Below are positions 2,451 to 52,190 of a stretch of 64,000 nucleotides of DNA, piece by piece. The stretch covers positions 124,001-188,000 of the forward strand of contig JAPLFG010000001.1 in NCBI GenBank assembly GCA_026390795.1, written 5' to 3'. This DNA comes from Ignavibacteriales bacterium. Its GTDB lineage: Bacteria > Bacteroidota > Ignavibacteria > Ignavibacteriales > Melioribacteraceae. The position numbers and the translations under genes are program-made. Below the pieces are notes generated by a model. That model was given only the letters and a program-made list of their open reading frames with translations, was not told the origin of the DNA and made no database searches. How positions within the stretch are numbered: the first letter of the stretch is position 1; the number at the start of each line of letters is the position of its first letter.

Positions 2451-2734
2451 AGCCCAGAATTCGCTTCTTTCTTGAGTTTTTAAGCTCTATTCAGCCATCC
2501 CGGTATATAAATTATATCCCACGTTAAACTTTATTCAAGAGAGTTCGATAATGATAACATAAGGGGTATAACTATAATGAAAATCAATTGGGTTCTCGAA
2601 CATAGATCAAAACTTTGCTCCCGGTCGTCTGAATTAACAAAAATAAACTTTAGTCGTTTCTATATAAAATATTATTAATCTTGTTGAAAAAAATTTACTC
2701 GAAAAATATTCAGTTTAATAGAGAGTAATTTATA

Positions 2735-3661
2735 ATGTATCGAAGCAATAATATGATGGGCGTCATACTTGCAGGCGGTGAGGGGGTTCGACTTCAAAAT
2801 TTTGTCCGGACGCTATACGGATATCACCGACCGAAGCAATATTGTACATTCACGGGTACGCGTTCAATGTTCAAACACACTATTGACCGTGCCTCAATGC
2901 TGATTCCTCAAAAGCAATTGTTTACAATTGTGAACAGCGATCACCGCAATTATGTTGCCGAAGAATCACTCAATAGAACTCCTATCACAATTATTGAACA
3001 GCCATGCCTGCGTGATACTGCGGCGGGAATTCTTTTGCCTCTTCTGAAAATTGAAAGCATTAATCCCGATGCGACCGTAGCAATCTTTCCTTCAGATCAT
3101 TACATTCTGAATGAAAAAAGGTTTATGGAACATGTTAATAAAGCTGCTCTATTTGTAGAGGAAAATCCAAAATCGATTGTCACGCTCGGAATCAAACCGG
3201 ATAGAATTGAATCCGGTTACGGATGGATCGAACCAACACGCGATCTCTTCAGCGACGGAACAACCAAAATTTTTAATGTAAAAAAGTTTATTGAAAAGCC
3301 GGACAGCAGTTATACAAAAGTTCTTATGAGTCAGGGCTGTATGATCAATACATTTGTAATGATTGGTAAATGTTCTTCGTTTATTAAACATATTAATTTT
3401 TGTCTCCCTGAACTTGTCGGTGCATTTCAACCGATCCGTGCCAAGATGGGGACTTCAATGGAAAAAATAAATATTAGACGGTTATATAAATATCTTCCAT
3501 CGTTCAATTTTTCAAAATCCGTTCTTGAAAATATTCCTCAATATCTGAACGTTCTCGAAGTTACGGATGTATATTGGAGCGATTGGGGTGATGAACACCG
3601 GATCAATTCCGATCTAGAAAGTATTAACGTTGCTATGGAAGAAGCGCTACTGGCAATGTAG
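2735..3661 (+). CDS. Mannose-1-phosphate guanylyltransferase-like sugar nucleotidyltransferase
   Basis: NTP-transferase fold enzyme expected to join a hexose 1-phosphate to a nucleoside triphosphate, most likely GDP-mannose synthesis for glycans. Seen: the nucleotide loop VILAGGEGVRL (residues 10-20) followed by RPKQYC, the family's RPKQF-type motif, then FPSDHY and EKPD. With 308 residues it is shorter than two-domain ManC proteins and lacks their C-terminal mannose-6-phosphate isomerase half. The first six residues before MMGVILAGG are unusual; a start at residue 7 or 8 is possible. It is isolated, with a hairpin just downstream. The sugar specificity is inferred. Confidence 0.75.
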   Translation: MYRSNNMMGVILAGGEGVRLQNFVRTLYGYHRPKQYCTFTGTRSMFKHTIDRASMLIPQKQLFTIVNSDHRNYVAEESLNRTPITIIEQPCLRDTAAGILLPLLKIESINPDATVAIFPSDHYILNEKRFMEHVNKAALFVEENPKSIVTLGIKPDRIESGYGWIEPTRDLFSDGTTKIFNVKKFIEKPDSSYTKVLMSQGCMINTFVMIGKCSSFIKHINFCLPELVGAFQPIRAKMGTSMEKINIRRLYKYLPSFNFSKSVLENIPQYLNVLEVTDVYWSDWGDEHRINSDLESINVAMEEALLAM

Positions 3662-44456: not shown

Positions 44457-44485
44457 TTGACAATTCATGTCTGAAACTGTAATTT
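44457..44485 (+). promoter_or_regulatory. Candidate sigma-70-type promoter of cassette 1
   Basis: TTGACA (44457-44462), 17-nt spacer, TAATTT (44480-44485). The same TTGACAATT word begins the promoter of cassette 2. A transcript would start near 44492 with a leader of about 156 nt. Confidence 0.45.
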
Positions 44486-44580
44486 CACACCAGTTACCAG
44501 CCGAAGTAACAAGAAAACATTAGTTTGTAAAAAAATTAAATGCCGCGAGGGCGCGGTGGTTTACTTGTGTCAAAATATTA

Positions 44581-44644
44581 TTACCAGCCAACAGCCAAAA
44601 ATAGTACAGCCGAAAGAAATTTTTTTTAATCACATAAGAGGGTG
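44581..44644 (+). promoter_or_regulatory. Cassette leader motifs, copy 1
   Basis: TTACCAGCCAA (44581), CAGCCGAA (44607) and AATCACATAAGAGGGTG (44628-44644). The same three blocks occur before the second surface-protein gene, with the first two spaced exactly 26 nt apart in both. The last block includes the ribosome-binding AGAGGG. Confidence 0.55.
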
Positions 44645-44647
44645 CTT

Positions 44648-47600
44648 ATGAAAAAACTAATTACATTGCTAATTTTTATTCCATTGATATTATCTGCGCA
44701 AGCAGGACCACCAACACCAACACCAGCGGATGCAGCCCCAACGATTTCGCTGAATCTTGCTTCGATCTCATGGACGGCATTTGATGATGGAAACGGTGTG
44801 GGAAATTATGATGTGGAATTAGCCGACGCTTCTTTCGCGGGTTCTCATTCGACTGTTGCTTTCGCAACAAATACAGCAGCGACTACATTGGCAATTCCAA
44901 CTCTGCTCATTCCTTCAAATACTTATTATTGGAGAGTGAGAGATACTAATATTGATGGTGCGGGTGCAGATGGACCATGGTACACGTTTTCTTTTACAAC
45001 CATTCTGCTTCCAACTTCTCAAGCGTCAGCAGTAGTTATTTCAAGTGTTACAACAACTTCATTCCAGGTTAACTGGACAGTTGGAAACGGTGCAACCGAA
45101 GCGGTATTTGTTCGTACTGGCAGTACAGGTACGGCATTTCCCATCAACGGCACAACTTATACACCGAATACCCTATTTGGCTCGGGTACTCAAATCAGCG
45201 CTAGCGGTTGGTATTGTGTTTTTAATGGTGGGCCTGGTGGTCCAGTAACCGTTACGGGTCTTACAGCTGGTTCGACATATTCCGTAATGGTATGCGATCT
45301 TAATGGTGGCGTCGGTACTCAAGCTTACAATATTAATACTGCAGCCGGCAATCCAAACACCCAGGTTACTATGCCTGTAGTAACAACAACTCCGATCACT
45401 GCTGACATTCTGGTGGGTACCAGTGTTTTCAGCGGAGGAAATGTTACTTATGGTGGCTCAACTGTAACAGTGCGCGGTGTATGCTGGAATACATCTGGTA
45501 CACCAACGACTGCAGATCCGAAGACTACTAACGGTGCAGGCGGTGGAACTTTTACAAGCACAGTTACACCATTAGTAGTTGGTACTCAATATTATTTGAG
45601 AGCATATGCAACTAATGCAGCAGGTACAGCTTATGGAAATGAAGTGACATTTGTAGCAGCAAATTTTAATGCTAGTGCATCAATTTCAACTAATTTTGTT
45701 ACGGGTGTAAGTATTCTCCCTGTTTTTGATTGGGATGCAATTGGTGCAGGAACAACTTATACTCTGGAAGTTTCAACCAGTTCATCATTTGGCTCCTTAA
45801 TTACATTAACCGGTAATGCAGGTATTGTTGGTAATTCATATACTGTTATCTATCCTGAATTCCTAAATAATGGAACACTTTATTACTGGCGTGTGAAAGC
45901 AACTGTTGGAGCTGGGGCATTGAATGGTATCTATTCACCTGCATGGCAGTTTACATCGGTCAATATTTCTAAACCGGAAATCAATCCAATTAATCCGGGA
46001 GTTACTTCCGCATTTATCGGATGGTATCAGGTTCCTTACTCATCCGGTTTAAAGTTCGATTTATATCGAGCTACTAATGTAGGAATGACAGCCAATCTAA
46101 CAACAGTGACTGATCTCACCAATTCCTATTATACTTATAATGGATTAAGCAACGGTACAACTTATTACTTGCAGGTTCGCGCAAAGAACTCCACAGGGGC
46201 TGTTATTATTTCTTATTCTGATGTAAAATCATTCACAACTTTAGCTCCGCCAAAACCGACTATTTCTTATCCTATCGGTGGTGTTACGGTCTATGCTTCT
46301 ACTCCTACATTCTTCTGGTATATTGAGGGCAATGAACCAGCTCTCGATTATGAAATTGAATGGCAACCTTTGGCAACTCCATTTACAAACGTTCCTCAGA
46401 TTACAACTACATCAAACAAATTATATAAAACTCTTACGACTGCTCTAACTGCAGGTGGTTCTTATCATTGGCAAGTTAGATCAAAGGCGGGAGCCAACGT
46501 ATCAAGTTGGTCAGATCCAGCAACATTTGTAGAGTTTAGCAGTTTGGCCACAGTACCGCCTGTTCCATTCCCATCCTGGCCTGCTGGAAGTCCTACACCA
46601 ACAATTTATAATAATCCTCCTGTTCTCTATTTCTATATCGATGTATACGCAACAGGTCTAGAATTCCAGGCACAGTATTCACCAGCTAACACATTATTAG
46701 GCGGGGCAGGAACTTCATTTAATAATTCACCGGTCGATTTACCATGGACTACTGATCTGTTCTCTGCGGTAGAAATTTCCTTAATTCCGGGAAATACATA
46801 TTATTGGCATGTTAGATCGAGGTTAGCAGCAAATCCAGGTGTTGTTTCTCTTTACTCCGATCCCGCATCTTTCAAAATTGCTACAACTGCAAGCGGCGCA
46901 GCTACTACTCCAATCCCTTCAGCTCCGGTTGGGGGAATAATTCTTGATAGTCCACTTTCAGGAATTACGTTAGCATGGACTGCTCCAGCTACTGAACCAT
47001 TGCAGTATCAGGTCAGGATTGCGCAAAGTTCCAGTGTTGACGGAAGTGGTATGTTAGATCATCCATTGGCAGTTTCGACAACGGCAGGCGGAGGATATCC
47101 AGTAAGTGATCCAACCAATTCTATCCTAATAACTGACATACCATATTCGGTAACACCAGGAGCGACTTATTACTGGCAAGTAAGATCTAGATTGGTTTCA
47201 AACCCTCTAATTTTTTCCGCATGGTCAATGGTTGCGACATTTTCAACAGCCGCCGGATCTTCTTCCGTAGTACCATTGGTTATCAGCCCTAACTATGGAC
47301 AACCGATAAATAACACTAGTGCAATATTAACCTGGAAGATACCGGTACCGACAGAATCTCACTTGAAATATGATTTACAATATTCAAAGAATTCGAATTT
47401 CAATAATATACAAACGATAACAAATCTAAATGAATCCGTTGCACAAGTATCGGGACTAGAATCAAACACAAGATATTATTGGAGAGTATTATCAAAGACG
47501 GATAATGGTTCAGTATCAAGTTACTCTACAACAGGATCATTTATTACAAGCGGCACTACAGCAGTTGAAAATCAAGAAGTTATTCCAACCCAATTTGAGT

Positions 47601-47866
47601 TATCACAGAACTATCCAAATCCATTCAATCCAACGACAAGGATAAATTTTGCTATACCTCAAAATTCATTTGTATCAATAAAAGTATATGATATGCTTGG
47701 TCAAGAAGTAAAGACCTTAATCAATCAAGAAATGGTATCGGGGAATCATTCAATTGATTGGAACGCTGATAACAACTTAGGAATCAAAGTAGCCACCGGA
47801 ATGTACATTTACAGGATAACAGCCGGAAACTTTGTTTCAACTAAGAAGATGGTATTAATTAAATAA
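44648..47866 (+). CDS. Large fibronectin-III-like cell-surface protein with T9SS type A sorting domain
   Basis: A 1072-residue secreted protein. Signal peptide (MKKLITLLIFIPLILSAQA) then a run of about eight Ig/fibronectin-III-like domains, each ending in a YYWRVR-type strand, and a C-terminal type A sorting domain (FELSQNYPNPFNPTTRI and the final KKMVLIK). Expected: export by T9SS and surface attachment. ATG 44648 with AGAGGG is preferred over GTG 44642. Its C-terminal ~640 residues are homologous to the product of the next big gene. A 30-codon gene follows 30 nt after the stop. No enzymatic motif seen; an adhesin or matrix protein is likely. Confidence 0.85.
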   Translation: MKKLITLLIFIPLILSAQAGPPTPTPADAAPTISLNLASISWTAFDDGNGVGNYDVELADASFAGSHSTVAFATNTAATTLAIPTLLIPSNTYYWRVRDTNIDGAGADGPWYTFSFTTILLPTSQASAVVISSVTTTSFQVNWTVGNGATEAVFVRTGSTGTAFPINGTTYTPNTLFGSGTQISASGWYCVFNGGPGGPVTVTGLTAGSTYSVMVCDLNGGVGTQAYNINTAAGNPNTQVTMPVVTTTPITADILVGTSVFSGGNVTYGGSTVTVRGVCWNTSGTPTTADPKTTNGAGGGTFTSTVTPLVVGTQYYLRAYATNAAGTAYGNEVTFVAANFNASASISTNFVTGVSILPVFDWDAIGAGTTYTLEVSTSSSFGSLITLTGNAGIVGNSYTVIYPEFLNNGTLYYWRVKATVGAGALNGIYSPAWQFTSVNISKPEINPINPGVTSAFIGWYQVPYSSGLKFDLYRATNVGMTANLTTVTDLTNSYYTYNGLSNGTTYYLQVRAKNSTGAVIISYSDVKSFTTLAPPKPTISYPIGGVTVYASTPTFFWYIEGNEPALDYEIEWQPLATPFTNVPQITTTSNKLYKTLTTALTAGGSYHWQVRSKAGANVSSWSDPATFVEFSSLATVPPVPFPSWPAGSPTPTIYNNPPVLYFYIDVYATGLEFQAQYSPANTLLGGAGTSFNNSPVDLPWTTDLFSAVEISLIPGNTYYWHVRSRLAANPGVVSLYSDPASFKIATTASGAATTPIPSAPVGGIILDSPLSGITLAWTAPATEPLQYQVRIAQSSSVDGSGMLDHPLAVSTTAGGGYPVSDPTNSILITDIPYSVTPGATYYWQVRSRLVSNPLIFSAWSMVATFSTAAGSSSVVPLVISPNYGQPINNTSAILTWKIPVPTESHLKYDLQYSKNSNFNNIQTITNLNESVAQVSGLESNTRYYWRVLSKTDNGSVSSYSTTGSFITSGTTAVENQEVIPTQFELSQNYPNPFNPTTRINFAIPQNSFVSIKVYDMLGQEVKTLINQEMVSGNHSIDWNADNNLGIKVATGMYIYRITAGNFVSTKKMVLIK

Positions 47867-47896
47867 TAATCTTTAATACTAGAAGAGGAAACTAAA

Positions 47897-47989
47897 ATGA
47901 AAAATATCAGCGCTCGAATCATATTTTTTCTTGTAATAGCTGCGGTAGGTCTAGCCCTGTACGCATGTCATCAAGCATATTTTGTATAG
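47897..47989 (+). CDS. 30-residue micro-lipoprotein/peptide, copy 1
   Basis: A small gene of 30 codons with GAGGAA upstream of the ATG. It begins MKNISARIIFFLVIAAV and ends GLALYACHQAYFV. The N-terminus is a signal-like hydrophobic helix, and LYAC resembles a lipobox (Tyr at -2 is unusual); cleavage would leave CHQAYFV. The last 13 residues are identical to copy 2 at 52033 while six of the 13 codons differ, all synonymously, so the peptide is under selection. It is encoded between the surface-protein stop and a terminator. Function unknown; a peptide signal, lipid-anchored tag or small membrane protein are all possible. Confidence 0.75.
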   Translation: MKNISARIIFFLVIAAVGLALYACHQAYFV

Positions 47990-48000
47990 CTGAATAAAAA

Positions 48001-48012
48001 AATAGATACAAT
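48001..48012 (+). repeat. Conserved 3' UTR word, copy 1
   Basis: AATAGATACAAT lies just after the micro-gene and recurs at 52139-52150 after the second one, in both cases shortly before the shared terminator hairpin. Confidence 0.6.
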
Positions 48013-48024
48013 TATTTATTGTGA

Positions 48025-48057
48025 GAAGGTCACCAATTTTGGTGACCTTCTTGCATT
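48025..48057 (+). terminator. Cassette terminator, copy 1
   Basis: GAAGGTCACCAA (48025-48036) pairs perfectly with TTGGTGACCTTC (48039-48050), then TTGCATTTT. The AGGTCACC...GGTGACCT core is the same as in the terminator at 52158. Confidence 0.85.
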
Positions 48058-48223
48058 TTAAAGATAGAGTCATTCATAATTTATTTTCAATTCTTAGTCT
48101 TCTCAATAAGTAATTTGAAAAACTTTGGTAACCTTCATTTAAGATAAACTCATTCTCTAATTTCAAATAAGATAGCAATGTGATTTATATCAATTTTTTT
48201 TTTAATAAAAAGATAGAATATCC

Positions 48224-48251
48224 TTGACAATTAATTTAAAATGGATATATT
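48224..48251 (+). promoter_or_regulatory. Candidate promoter of cassette 2
   Basis: TTGACA (48224-48229), 16-nt spacer, TATATT (48246-48251). Transcription would begin near 48258, giving a leader of about 108 nt. Confidence 0.55.
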
Positions 48252-48257
48252 ATCCAT
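48241..48257. promoter_or_regulatory. Palindrome over the -10 box (operator candidate)
   Basis: ATGGATA, TAT, TATCCAT: perfect 7-bp arms centred on the -10 element, a position where a repressor dimer would block polymerase. The first cassette has no such palindrome at its promoter. Confidence 0.4.
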
Positions 48258-48296
48258 AGAGATTAGAAAAATATAGTATATAATATCTTTTTACTC

Positions 48297-48363
48297 TTAC
48301 CAGCCAAGTAGAGAGAAAAATTCAGCCGAATTTTAAATATCTTATTAATCACTTAAGAGGGTG
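48297..48363 (+). promoter_or_regulatory. Cassette leader motifs, copy 2
   Basis: TTACCAGCCAA (48297), CAGCCGAA (48323) and AATCACTTAAGAGGGTG (48347-48363). Spacing of the first two is 26 nt as in copy 1; the gap to the third is 24 versus 21. Confidence 0.55.
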
Positions 48364-48365
48364 TC

Positions 48366-51300
48366 ATGAAACAAAAATTAACTGTTTTTGCAATTATAAC
48401 GTTAATAAGTTTCAACGTTATCTTTGCTCAAGTTCCCGCTGCACCATTAGCTTCGGCGGCGACTTCGATAACTGCTACATCATTTACTGCAAATTGGGCA
48501 TCGGGAGGTGGAGCGGCTGAAACAGCCTACTATCTGGATGTATCTACAAGTAGTTCTTTTGCATCATTTGTTTCCGGATATAATAATTTAAATGTAGGTC
48601 TCGTTACCTCGTACTCTGTTACGGGTTTAACTGCCGGTCCAACTTACTATTATAGAGTAAGAGGATATAACGGATTCGGGAGTAGCCCCAATTCAAGTAC
48701 TATTGATGTTGCAGGTATTTCAGTTGCATCTGCTGCTACATCAATTTCAAATTCCGGTTTCACTGCTAATTGGAGTGCGGTAGCAGGAGCTTCTTCATAT
48801 ACATTAACAAATGTAGTGGATGGTTCAAGTCCTTATTTTTTAATTGTTGGTACTTCTTATGCTGTCACAGGTTTAACTGCCGGCACAATGTATACATATA
48901 GTGTTCAAGCAGTCAGTACTAGTTTATCAATAAGTACGGCTTCTAATTCTATAACGGTTTGGACAATTCCTTCCGATCCAGTTTCATCTGCAGCAACCGA
49001 TGTTGCAGGAACAAGTTTTTCAGCAAATTGGAGTGCATCCACTGGTGCGACAGGATATTATTTAGATGTAGCAACAGATGCCGGATTTTCTTCATTTGTT
49101 TCCGGATATAATAATTTAGCACTCGGAGTTGTTACAACTTATTCAGTAACCGGATTATCATCGAACACGCCATACTGGTATAGAGTTCGTGCATTCAATA
49201 CTGGTGGTACTAGTGGAAATTCAGGAACACAGACTACAACTACCGGTCCTCTGGCAAATGCTGCAACTTTGATAACCCAAACGTCCTTTCAAGCAAATTG
49301 GGCAGTTGCTGCCGCAAATAATTATTTAGAAGTTTCCACCTCACCAACTTTTGCTGGTAACATCGGTGGAAATTTTGCTGGAACATTCGATTTCGGAGTT
49401 GTCTCAAGCACTCCGGTAAGTGGGCTTACTGCGGGTACAACTTACTATTATAGAGTAAGCACTGCAGCTGCAACGCCCCCATATTCTAATACAATAACAG
49501 TTGTTACAGTTCCGCCAGCTCCAGTTTCTTCAGCAGCTTCAAATATAGCCGGCACAAGCTTATCGGCAAATTGGTCTTCGGCTTCCGGTGCAACAGGTTA
49601 TTACTTAGATGTTGCAACGGATGTTGGTTTTACATCATATGTTTCTGGATTTAATAATTTAAATGTTGGAAACGTAACAACTTATTCTGTTACTGGATTA
49701 ACAATTAGTACCCCGTATTATTACAGAGTTCGTGCTTACAATGGAAGCGGCACAAGCGGAAATTCTTCAACTCAAAATCCAACAACTGGTCCAGCAGTGC
49801 CATTAATTGGTGGGTCAAGTCCAGCAAATTATGCAGTCGGTGTTACAATTCAACCATCATTTGCATGGTCGGGAGGTGTTAGTTACGACTTCCAAATTGA
49901 CGATAACAGCGACTTTAGTTCACCGATTATATCTTTAAATGCTAATCCAAGTACATCGTATAGTTTTGCACCATATGTTAATACGTCAACAATCTTACTG
50001 GCAAATGGGACAACTTATTATTGGAGAATTAGAAAATTTGGTCCACCTAACAGCGATTGGACACCAACTCAAGAATTTACTACAGTCAATGCTGCAACGC
50101 CATATATGAATCCTACTCTAACTGGTGTTACTACTGCATATATCTCATGGCATCCTGTTCCGTATTCATCAGGTTTATATTACGATTTGTTGTGGTCGGC
50201 TAGTGCAAATATGGCTGGTTTCACTACTGTAGCTAGACTTGATACAACTTCATATACATTAACAAATTTAGTACAAGGTACAACTTATTATGTTCAAGTT
50301 AGAGCAAAGAATACCGCAGGAACAGTAATAATAACTTATTCAAGTGTAACGACTCCTTTTACTGCCACTGCACCGCCTATTCCTTATAGATCCTATCCAA
50401 TTGACGGCGCAACAAGTTATGCATTGAAACCAACATTTTTCTGGTATATAAAAGGAAATGAACCGTTTTTAGATTATCAAATTCGTTATAGACTATCAAC
50501 GGATCCTTATCCAGGTGTACCTCAGGTAACAACAACATCAAACAAATTATACAAAACAATCTCCACAGATTTAGTAGCTGGATCAACTTATTACTGGCAG
50601 GTTAGATCGTTCATTGGCGGAGTTTATTCAAACTGGTCAACAATTGGAGATTCATCCTTTGTTATGTATACAAGCTTAGCAAGTTCACCAATTGTTCCAT
50701 ATGCATCGTGGCCATCGGGAGGCGCTACTGTATATGTTAATCCTCCTGTATTATATTATTATATTGATGTATATGCAACCGGTTTGGAATTTCAAGTTCA
50801 GTATTCTACGAGTTCTTCTGTTGGCGGAGGAGGAGATTTTTCAGTTTCTCCGGTTACATCAACTTGGACTACAGACTTGTTTTCGGCACTTAATGCCTCA
50901 CTAATTCCAAATCAACTTTATTACTGGCATGTTAGATCAAGATTAGCCGCAACACCGGCATCAATTTCCGCTTGGTCTTCAACTGTGAATTTCTTAGTTG
51001 CAACGACGGCAAGCGGTGCGGCAACGACGCCAATACCTTCAACTCCTGTTGGTGGACAAATATTAGATAGTCCGCTTTCCGGAGTAACTTTGTATTGGTC
51101 AGCTTTTTCAACTCAAGTATTGGATTTTGAAGTAAGGATTGCTCAGAGTTCGAGCGTTGATATTAATGGTAGGTTGGACCATCCATTAGCAACTTCTGCG
51201 GCCTGGATAACAAACGCGGCAACATCAATAACCGTTACTTCTATTCCTTATACTTTAACAGCTGGAGCTTCTTATTATTGGCAAGTAAGATCTAGGTTAA

Positions 51301-51971
51301 ACACAAATAACCTTATAGTCTCTCCATGGTCAATGGTTGCAAGCTTTGCTACCGCCGCCGGATCGTCATCAGTAGTGCCATTAGTTATCAGTCCTAACTA
51401 TGGACAGCCGATAAACAATACAAGTGCAATACTAACATGGAAGATTCCGGTACCAACTGAAACGCATTTGAAATATGATTTACAATATTCCAAGAGTGCG
51501 GATTTTAGTAATGCGCAGGCAAAAACAAATCTTGATGAACCGGTAATGCAAGTATCCGGACTAGATCAAAACTCAACTTATTATTGGAGAGTATTATCAA
51601 AGAACGATAATGGTTCGATCTCAAATTATTCAACAACAGGAACATTCAAGACAAGCGGAGCTACTAGCGTAGAAGGAGAAGAAGCAATACCGACAGCATT
51701 TGAGTTATCACAAAACTATCCAAACCCATTCAATCCAACAACAAGAATCACTTATGCACTTCCACAGAATTCATACGTAACCATTAAGGTTTACGATATG
51801 TTAGGACGTGAAGTAAGAACATTAATAAGTGGTGAAATGTTGGCCGGAAGTCATTCGGTTGAGTGGAAAGGAGAGGACAATTTAGGTGGAAAAGTAGCAA
51901 GCGGTGCTTACATATACAGAATAACCGCGGGCAATTTTATTTCCACAAAGAAAATGTTATTACTGAAGTAA
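48366..51971 (+). CDS. Large fibronectin-III-like cell-surface protein with T9SS type A sorting domain, paralogue
   Basis: A 1201-residue secreted protein. Signal peptide (MKQKLTVFAIITLISFNVIF, cleavage near AQ), about eleven Ig/FN3-like modules and the C-terminal T9SS type A domain (FELSQNYPNPFNPTTRI, ending KKMLLLK). Modules 1, 3 and 5 (about residues 24-115, 205-295, 385-480) are close internal repeats with YYLDV and SGYNNLNVG-type strands. The C-terminal ~650 residues match the neighbour at 44648, often identical in sequence (SSVVPLVISPNYGQPINN) but differing at synonymous sites, so the duplication is old and conserved. A 30-codon gene follows 61 nt later. Confidence 0.85.
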   Translation: MKQKLTVFAIITLISFNVIFAQVPAAPLASAATSITATSFTANWASGGGAAETAYYLDVSTSSSFASFVSGYNNLNVGLVTSYSVTGLTAGPTYYYRVRGYNGFGSSPNSSTIDVAGISVASAATSISNSGFTANWSAVAGASSYTLTNVVDGSSPYFLIVGTSYAVTGLTAGTMYTYSVQAVSTSLSISTASNSITVWTIPSDPVSSAATDVAGTSFSANWSASTGATGYYLDVATDAGFSSFVSGYNNLALGVVTTYSVTGLSSNTPYWYRVRAFNTGGTSGNSGTQTTTTGPLANAATLITQTSFQANWAVAAANNYLEVSTSPTFAGNIGGNFAGTFDFGVVSSTPVSGLTAGTTYYYRVSTAAATPPYSNTITVVTVPPAPVSSAASNIAGTSLSANWSSASGATGYYLDVATDVGFTSYVSGFNNLNVGNVTTYSVTGLTISTPYYYRVRAYNGSGTSGNSSTQNPTTGPAVPLIGGSSPANYAVGVTIQPSFAWSGGVSYDFQIDDNSDFSSPIISLNANPSTSYSFAPYVNTSTILLANGTTYYWRIRKFGPPNSDWTPTQEFTTVNAATPYMNPTLTGVTTAYISWHPVPYSSGLYYDLLWSASANMAGFTTVARLDTTSYTLTNLVQGTTYYVQVRAKNTAGTVIITYSSVTTPFTATAPPIPYRSYPIDGATSYALKPTFFWYIKGNEPFLDYQIRYRLSTDPYPGVPQVTTTSNKLYKTISTDLVAGSTYYWQVRSFIGGVYSNWSTIGDSSFVMYTSLASSPIVPYASWPSGGATVYVNPPVLYYYIDVYATGLEFQVQYSTSSSVGGGGDFSVSPVTSTWTTDLFSALNASLIPNQLYYWHVRSRLAATPASISAWSSTVNFLVATTASGAATTPIPSTPVGGQILDSPLSGVTLYWSAFSTQVLDFEVRIAQSSSVDINGRLDHPLATSAAWITNAATSITVTSIPYTLTAGASYYWQVRSRLNTNNLIVSPWSMVASFATAAGSSSVVPLVISPNYGQPINNTSAILTWKIPVPTETHLKYDLQYSKSADFSNAQAKTNLDEPVMQVSGLDQNSTYYWRVLSKNDNGSISNYSTTGTFKTSGATSVEGEEAIPTAFELSQNYPNPFNPTTRITYALPQNSYVTIKVYDMLGREVRTLISGEMLAGSHSVEWKGEDNLGGKVASGAYIYRITAGNFISTKKMLLLK

Positions 51972-52032
51972 CAGTAAAAACAATTCAACTAAAAATAGAT
52001 AACTCAAATTAAAAGAAAGAAAAGAGGCGGAA

Positions 52033-52125
52033 ATGAAAAAGATAAGTGCATCACTCTTTTTGTTGTTCGTGCTGGCGGTAATAGGCTTAGCCTTATATGC
52101 ATGTCACCAAGCGTATTTTGTATAG
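52033..52125 (+). CDS. 30-residue micro-lipoprotein/peptide, copy 2
   Basis: A 30-codon gene with AAAGAGGCGGAA before its ATG. It starts MKKISASLFLLFVLAVI and ends in the same GLALYACHQAYFV as copy 1. The hydrophobic part differs freely while the C-terminal 13 residues are fixed; that pattern fits a cleaved signal peptide with a functional tail. Six synonymous differences in 13 codons argue for coding. It precedes the terminator at 52158. See copy 1 for possible roles. Confidence 0.75.
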   Translation: MKKISASLFLLFVLAVIGLALYACHQAYFV

Positions 52126-52138
52126 ATTAATAAAATAA

Positions 52139-52150
52139 AATAGATACAAT
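52139..52150 (+). repeat. Conserved 3' UTR word, copy 2
   Basis: AATAGATACAAT, identical to 48001-48012, between the micro-gene and the terminator. Confidence 0.6.
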
Positions 52151-52157
52151 GATTATG

Positions 52158-52190
52158 AAAAGGTCACCATTTCTTGGTGACCTTTTTTTT
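52158..52190 (+). terminator. Cassette terminator, copy 2
   Basis: AAAAGGTCACCA (52158-52169) pairs perfectly with TGGTGACCTTTT and runs into eight or more T. Same core as the copy at 48025 but with a better T run. Confidence 0.9.

Follow-up and report, generated by a model that had tools for sequence, protein, structure and literature searches.

A family of 30-codon genes found almost always behind giant type IX-secreted surface-protein genes in Ignavibacteriales

In a 64,000-nucleotide (nt) stretch of the genome of an Ignavibacteriales bacterium (contig JAPLFG010000001.1, positions 124,001 to 188,000; hereafter the window), two giant genes encoding surface proteins with FN3-type domains and a C-terminal domain (CTD) of the type IX secretion system (T9SS) are each followed by a gene of only 30 codons. 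Both small open reading frames (ORFs) lie where the original prediction, made from the letters of the window, had placed them, and their translations were confirmed; they begin 30 nt (cassette 1) and 61 nt (cassette 2) after the stop codon of the surface-protein gene. As had also been noticed, the two products share their last 13 residues exactly, and at six of these positions the codons are different (Gly, Leu, Leu, Tyr, His and Ala), every change being synonymous. The C-termini of both surface proteins, which we refer to as cargo, exceed the TIGR04183 cut-off of 23 bits and thus mark them as type-A cargo, an assignment made with the type-A model alone (Table 1). We show that the 30-codon genes are a real, unnamed family, well above chance, that is associated with one class of T9SS cargo.

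Table 1 Features of the two cassettes (window coordinates)
Feature	Position	Strand	Remarks
Surface protein 1	44648..47866	+	~1072 aa; FN3-type domains; Sec-type signal peptide by eye; T9SS type-A CTD; alternative start possible (GTG at 44642)
Conserved FN3 stalk, surface protein 1	45995..47578	+	stalk profile A3, 570 bits
CTD, surface protein 1	about 47612-47854		TIGR04183, 45.4 bits
30-codon gene 1	47897..47989	+	product MKNISARIIFFLVIAAVGLALYACHQAYFV
Terminator-like hairpin 3′ of gene 1	48025..48050	+	GAAGGTCACC-AATTTT-GGTGACCTTC; read from sequence, absent from the scan's list
Promoter-like TTGACA-16-TATATT 5′ of cassette 2	48224..48251	+	11/12 consensus match only; 21 promoter-like sites found against a mean of 16.8 in shuffled sequence
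Surface protein 2	48366..51971	+	1201 aa; FN3-type domains; Sec-type signal peptide by eye; T9SS type-A CTD
Conserved FN3 stalk, surface protein 2	50094..51683	+	stalk profile A3, 556 bits
CTD, surface protein 2	about 51717-51959		TIGR04183, 39.1 bits
30-codon gene 2	52033..52125	+	product MKKISASLFLLFVLAVIGLALYACHQAYFV
Terminator-like hairpin 3′ of gene 2	52160..52189	+	AAGGTCACC-ATTTCTT-GGTGACCTT and a T run; read from sequence, absent from the scan's list

Gene finders can easily miss genes of this length. Copies were sought directly in genome sequence (below, G### denotes a genome, :C# a contig and L### a locus stretch, G000 being the genome of the window). A single window peptide, compared with 57 related genomes, detected copies in relatives at E-values down to 1e-14, as well as a third copy in the window genome itself (G000:C1:25207). 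A profile of 23 such peptides was run on 79 family genomes, where it picked up new copies with E-values of 1e-9 to 1e-16 in genomes from which it had not been built, and on 395 genomes from the phylum. A second profile, from 48 peptides (alignment A2), was searched against 164 genomes of the order, and 75 matches reached E 1e-5 or better. Two further copies (G041 and G013:C30) reached only E 0.002 in the search, yet are intact and lie behind a CTD gene. The total is 77 copies in 48 genomes of the order, 46 from the family of the window (Melioribacteraceae by record names) and two from a sister family (G033 and G041), so the question raised by the original prediction, whether further genomes carry the conserved tail, is answered in the affirmative. 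Two of the 77 copies carry an in-frame stop (G058:C41 and G015:C4:10720), and the count leaves out a diverged copy in G076, recognised by position only, and a frameshifted copy in G101. Decayed copies were seen at L075 10720-10800 (in-frame TAG), L103 8043-8129 (in-frame TGA) and L147 about 2650-3200 (the frameshifted G101 copy).

Outside the order, profile A1 gave no short-ORF match below E 1e-3 in the 395 phylum genomes, many of which were scored on their best 20 candidates, so that divergent copies could be missed; a match in G211 at 6e-4 was rejected because it sits in a 235-codon frame. A DNA pattern for LALYACHxxYF, which covers the H-type tail only, found 22 stretches in a collection of 84,980 genomes. 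Twenty-one belong to records titled Melioribacter, Melioribacteraceae, Stygiobacter, Ignavibacteria/Ignavibacteriales or Bacteroidetes bacterium (the last a single record with two stretches); the remaining one, in a Ruminococcus record, was rejected because the frame continues beyond the motif and the helix is absent. Neither window peptide matches a Pfam family at E 1 or less (best over the 48 rows of A2, E 0.014), and NCBIfam gives the window peptides only weak matches; over the same rows the best E was 0.024, and no match reached its cut-off. A literature search of open-licence PubMed Central (PMC) papers, at the level of titles and abstract openings among the papers listed, returned nothing on such a gene. 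The family has a member in a named strain, Stygiobacter electus 09-Me (L131), and a culture-based test may therefore be possible.

The synonymous differences between the two window copies had been read as a sign of selection on the peptide, and a test across the family bore this out: the ratio of non-synonymous to synonymous differences (pN/pS) is 0.06 over the last 13 codons and 0.39 over the first 15 (155 pairs at 70–97% DNA identity, which are not independent of one another). Furthermore, a Shine-Dalgarno match of at least 4 nt precedes 57 of 69 copies, compared to 14% of ATGs (n = 3334) and 48% of the first ATGs of long ORFs (n = 99). The low pN/pS, the near-constant length and the Shine-Dalgarno enrichment together rule out a non-coding RNA or a chance ORF; the small gene is coding, with strong selection on its peptide. 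Type I toxins resemble the product in size and hydrophobicity, and it could in principle be a toxin-like hydrophobic peptide carried as a passenger of surface-protein cassettes. We regard this as very improbable, given that the C-terminus is the most constrained part of the peptide and that the gene is linked to T9SS cargo in nearly every copy that could be assessed.

That linkage, as suspected from the two window cassettes, holds almost without exception. By a loose pattern, a CTD-like C-terminus is encoded upstream on the same strand of 74 of the 77 copies (74 of 76 assessable), with one outlying spacing of 329 nt that is an artefact of measuring to the profile start. The other three comprise a copy with only 73 nt of upstream sequence (G065), a degenerate copy (G058:C41) and an intact orphan (G030:C2), about 120 nt downstream of which a T9SS open frame starts. 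In a non-redundant set of 70 copies, 68 of 69 assessable ones lie behind a CTD, all within 129 nt; a stricter CTD pattern loses one more copy, whose upstream sequence is cut. For comparison, 20,000 random sites in the same cargo-rich loci pass the loose test in 1.35% of cases and the strict test in 0.9%. Terminator-like hairpins, called by our own criteria, occur in the 150 nt downstream of the small gene in 35 of 69 cases and in the spacer that separates it from the cargo in 2 of 66, and this placement indicates that the small gene is probably in the same transcription unit as its cargo. Among related cargos that lack the small gene, 12 of 15 show a hairpin of this kind no more than 150 nt past their own stop codon.

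The cargos concerned are a particular subset of T9SS substrates. Of the 64 TIGR04183 genes in the window genome, three have the small gene (all placed by coordinates); a general tail of every T9SS gene was ruled out, since among these 64, inspected for short hydrophobic ORFs in the next 350 nt, the peptide occurs only at the three known sites. Judged by the 525 residues preceding the CTD, 65 of 69 cargos upstream of small genes form one group, characterized by a conserved FN3 stalk. In the window genome, only the three cargos that have the small gene match the stalk profile strongly (446–570 bits, against 76 for the next). The remaining four of the 69 cargos differ in the 525 residues before the CTD, with weak or clear cohesin matches in L105 and L096 and a beta-helix in L145. 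When their whole length is compared, three of them do match the stalk profile (L105 at 162 bits, L106 at 82 and L145 at 54); the exception is L096, which is truncated at its 5′ end. The N-terminal and middle parts of the cargos vary while the CTD is constant, with examples including a pectinesterase-like part (L108), a beta-helix (L145), cohesin/dockerin (L096) and a DUF5122 propeller (L114).

Cargos with the gene also tend toward one form of the CTD, typically carrying a long W-x-G-x-D-N-x-G-x-K-V. Among stalk cargos, at least four of five signature residues are present in 60 of the 65 that have the gene, compared to 6 of the 15 that lack it (Fisher P = 3e-5, a value that ignores relatedness), the 15 being those found and fetched when at most 19 candidates were scored in many genomes. 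A cruder signature pattern gives 50 of 69 with the gene against 5 of 15 without, and 3 of 3 against 0 of 61 in the window genome. Two cargos with a small gene (L088 and L074) have only zero or one signature residue. Taken together, these comparisons show by computation that the small gene is associated with one cargo class.

Several other features of the export system were seen beside the cargos. PorU is present in the window genome (954 bits, full match at C2:40592), and on the window's own contig, outside the window, a 1805-codon frame (G000:C1:56229-60911) has PorU-like N-terminal (219 bits) and C-terminal (75 bits) parts. Many cargo signal peptides, including those beginning at window positions 44648 and 48366, show by eye an A-Q at the likely cleavage site; a count of such A|Q sites (12 of 59) was discarded because the pattern was poor. 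The abstract of the paper on this Q rule states it for Bacteroidetes rather than for the whole Fibrobacteres–Chlorobi–Bacteroidetes group (PMC5837995).

Descent alone could produce much of this association. Whole cassettes are repeated in tandem, with two in the window, three in G001 (adjoining a fourth stalk gene that lacks the small gene) and six in G019, where the array lies at L079/L116 (G019:C4, 265–297 kb) and its first open frame has 2552 codons. With 68 of 69 cargos showing at least some match to the stalk profile, shared ancestry could explain most of the linkage, and common descent from a single cassette is a serious rival to an accessory role. In its full form, this explanation holds that an ancestral cassette was duplicated and that the peptide hitch-hikes, serving the envelope in a way unrelated to its neighbour. 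We consider that unlikely, as strong selection on the peptide has been retained and so, in 74 of 76 assessable copies, has the position behind a CTD gene.

The peptide family has a probable lipobox, judging from residue frequencies among 68 distinct members. Cys is present in 64 (94%), with A/S at −1 and L/I/V/C at −3; over all members, residue −1 is Ala in 65 and Ser in three, and residue −3 is L/I/V in 67 and Cys in one. Five or six residues follow the Cys, with Y/F/L/I at +4 and F/L/I at +5, and the N-terminus is positive in most alignment rows. LspA is encoded in the window genome (119.7 bits, contig C5), which also contains a second, partial LspA match of 54 bits with an in-frame TGA (G000:C1:377715-377951). 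These features would suit a micro-lipoprotein from which signal peptidase II would remove 23 residues, leaving a lipidated peptide of 6–7 residues (typically C-H/Q-x-x-Y/F-F/L). Such a peptide would sit in the outer membrane as an anchor, a spacer or a signal and take no direct part in T9SS export. Against this reading stand four members in which A, S, S or I replaces the Cys and the other features are intact, among them Ala at −1 and an aromatic or Leu terminus (G088, G020, G013 and G076, each of which also encodes a Cys-bearing copy), as well as constraints that are not lipobox features. To gauge the latter, 21 control lipoproteins were picked from the same stretches by our own pattern and are themselves unproven as lipoproteins. 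Residue −4 is A/S in 68 of 68 peptides but in only 4 of 21 controls, and the Ala at −1 is found in 2 of 21 controls, 19 having Ser or Gly there. Likewise, the stretch before the Cys is 23 residues long in 58 of 64 peptides, compared to a control median of 19 (range 13–24). This constant length is not caused by start choice: in 61 of 69 copies only one in-frame ATG is available, and 57 of those 61 have 23 residues ahead of the Cys position.

The lipobox thus does not account for all of the constraint, and the pattern fits a defined membrane peptide as well as it fits a lipoprotein signal. Concerning the original prediction of a lipobox and of a lipidated heptapeptide released by signal peptidase II, the lipobox stands in 64 of 68 peptides; release is plausible, tempered by the Cys-less members and by the constraint beyond the lipobox. 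A purely micro-lipoprotein role, which in addition leaves the linkage to T9SS cargo unexplained, appears doubtful. The exact spacing in single-ATG copies, the small residues at −4 and −1, the Cys-less members and the members with longer N-termini in G076 would instead suit a microprotein that stays uncleaved, crosses the inner membrane once and adjusts Sec or the T9SS motor to very large cargo, its Cys acting as a helix-packing or redox residue. This, too, we judge improbable, because so many of the peptides carry the Cys in a good lipobox frame and because conservation along the helix shows no clear 100-degree period.

Weighing these observations, we tentatively favour, at somewhat less than an even chance, a reading in which the small gene product is a membrane- or lipid-anchored accessory that helps the export or anchoring of one type-A cargo class. 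The small gene would be the second of a two-gene unit with the giant T9SS surface protein. Its product would be a membrane peptide inserted by Sec, in which the positive N-terminus stays on the inner side and is followed by a single hydrophobic helix and, after the Cys, by a tail of 5–6 residues outside the inner membrane; the Cys would be lipidated in most members. As a dedicated helper, it would serve cargo with an FN3 stalk and usually the long-form CTD in export or anchoring, much as PorP/SprF partners do for type-B cargo, with the stalk, the CTD or the T9SS itself as candidate partners. A more specific version, in which a lipopeptide of 6–7 residues, among the smallest lipoproteins known, constitutes a new class of T9SS accessory dedicated to this type-A cargo and helps to choose where or how it is anchored, strikes us as rather doubtful.

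Several points weigh against the accessory role. Direct contact with cargo or translocon would be a guess from linkage. The intact orphan in G030:C2 (L104 9473-9556) follows a gene that by eye is cold-shock-like. Stalk cargos without the small gene exist, which means that the peptide is not strictly required; of the 15, nine lack the CTD signature and six have it. Moreover, 5 of 56 other cargo CTDs in the window genome have four of the five signature residues and no small gene (an alignment count whose parse read at least one gene twice), and the signature columns were picked by contrasting cargos with and without the gene, making that contrast partly circular. Finally, the four seemingly stalk-less cargos do not separate CTD from stalk: an argument from them that the CTD is the target was withdrawn, as three of the four match the stalk profile elsewhere and L096 is cut.

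Were the accessory role correct, type-A cargo would have a private partner, as type-B cargo does, and would not be handled by PorV alone; the cassettes would then offer a minimal system for asking how T9SS cargo reaches its final place.

Among known small peptides, enterococcal sex pheromones, to which the original prediction had compared the product, are cut from the signal peptides of larger lipoproteins. Both are short peptides around a lipobox, a probable one in the present family; here, however, the peptide has no larger lipoprotein to be cut from, the residues after the Cys are conserved and the gene travels with a surface-protein gene, which leaves the analogy weak. LptM, a small lipoprotein chaperone of LptD, is likewise a tiny lipoprotein-like protein, although its genomic setting differs; its model (NF047847) aligns weakly over residues 1–24, giving the window peptides 13.7 and 10.3 bits against a cut-off of 27.7 and matching 2 of 48 family members at E 0.1 or less. 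Entericidin B (NF007487, best E 0.098) and colicin lysis lipoprotein (PF02402, best E 0.043), both very small lipoproteins, match one member each of the 48, and neither is known to be linked to T9SS. The closest parallel is found within T9SS itself, where type-B cargo commonly has a SprF/PorP-like partner encoded directly downstream, as in SprB-SprF (PMC12618676, PMC9143113). The cassettes described here differ in their cargo, which carries a type-A CTD (TIGR04183), and in the putative partner, a peptide of ~30 residues rather than an outer-membrane barrel. On both counts they are not a member of the type-B cargo/PorP-SprF pair type, with which they share the arrangement of a T9SS surface protein followed by the gene for a putative membrane partner.

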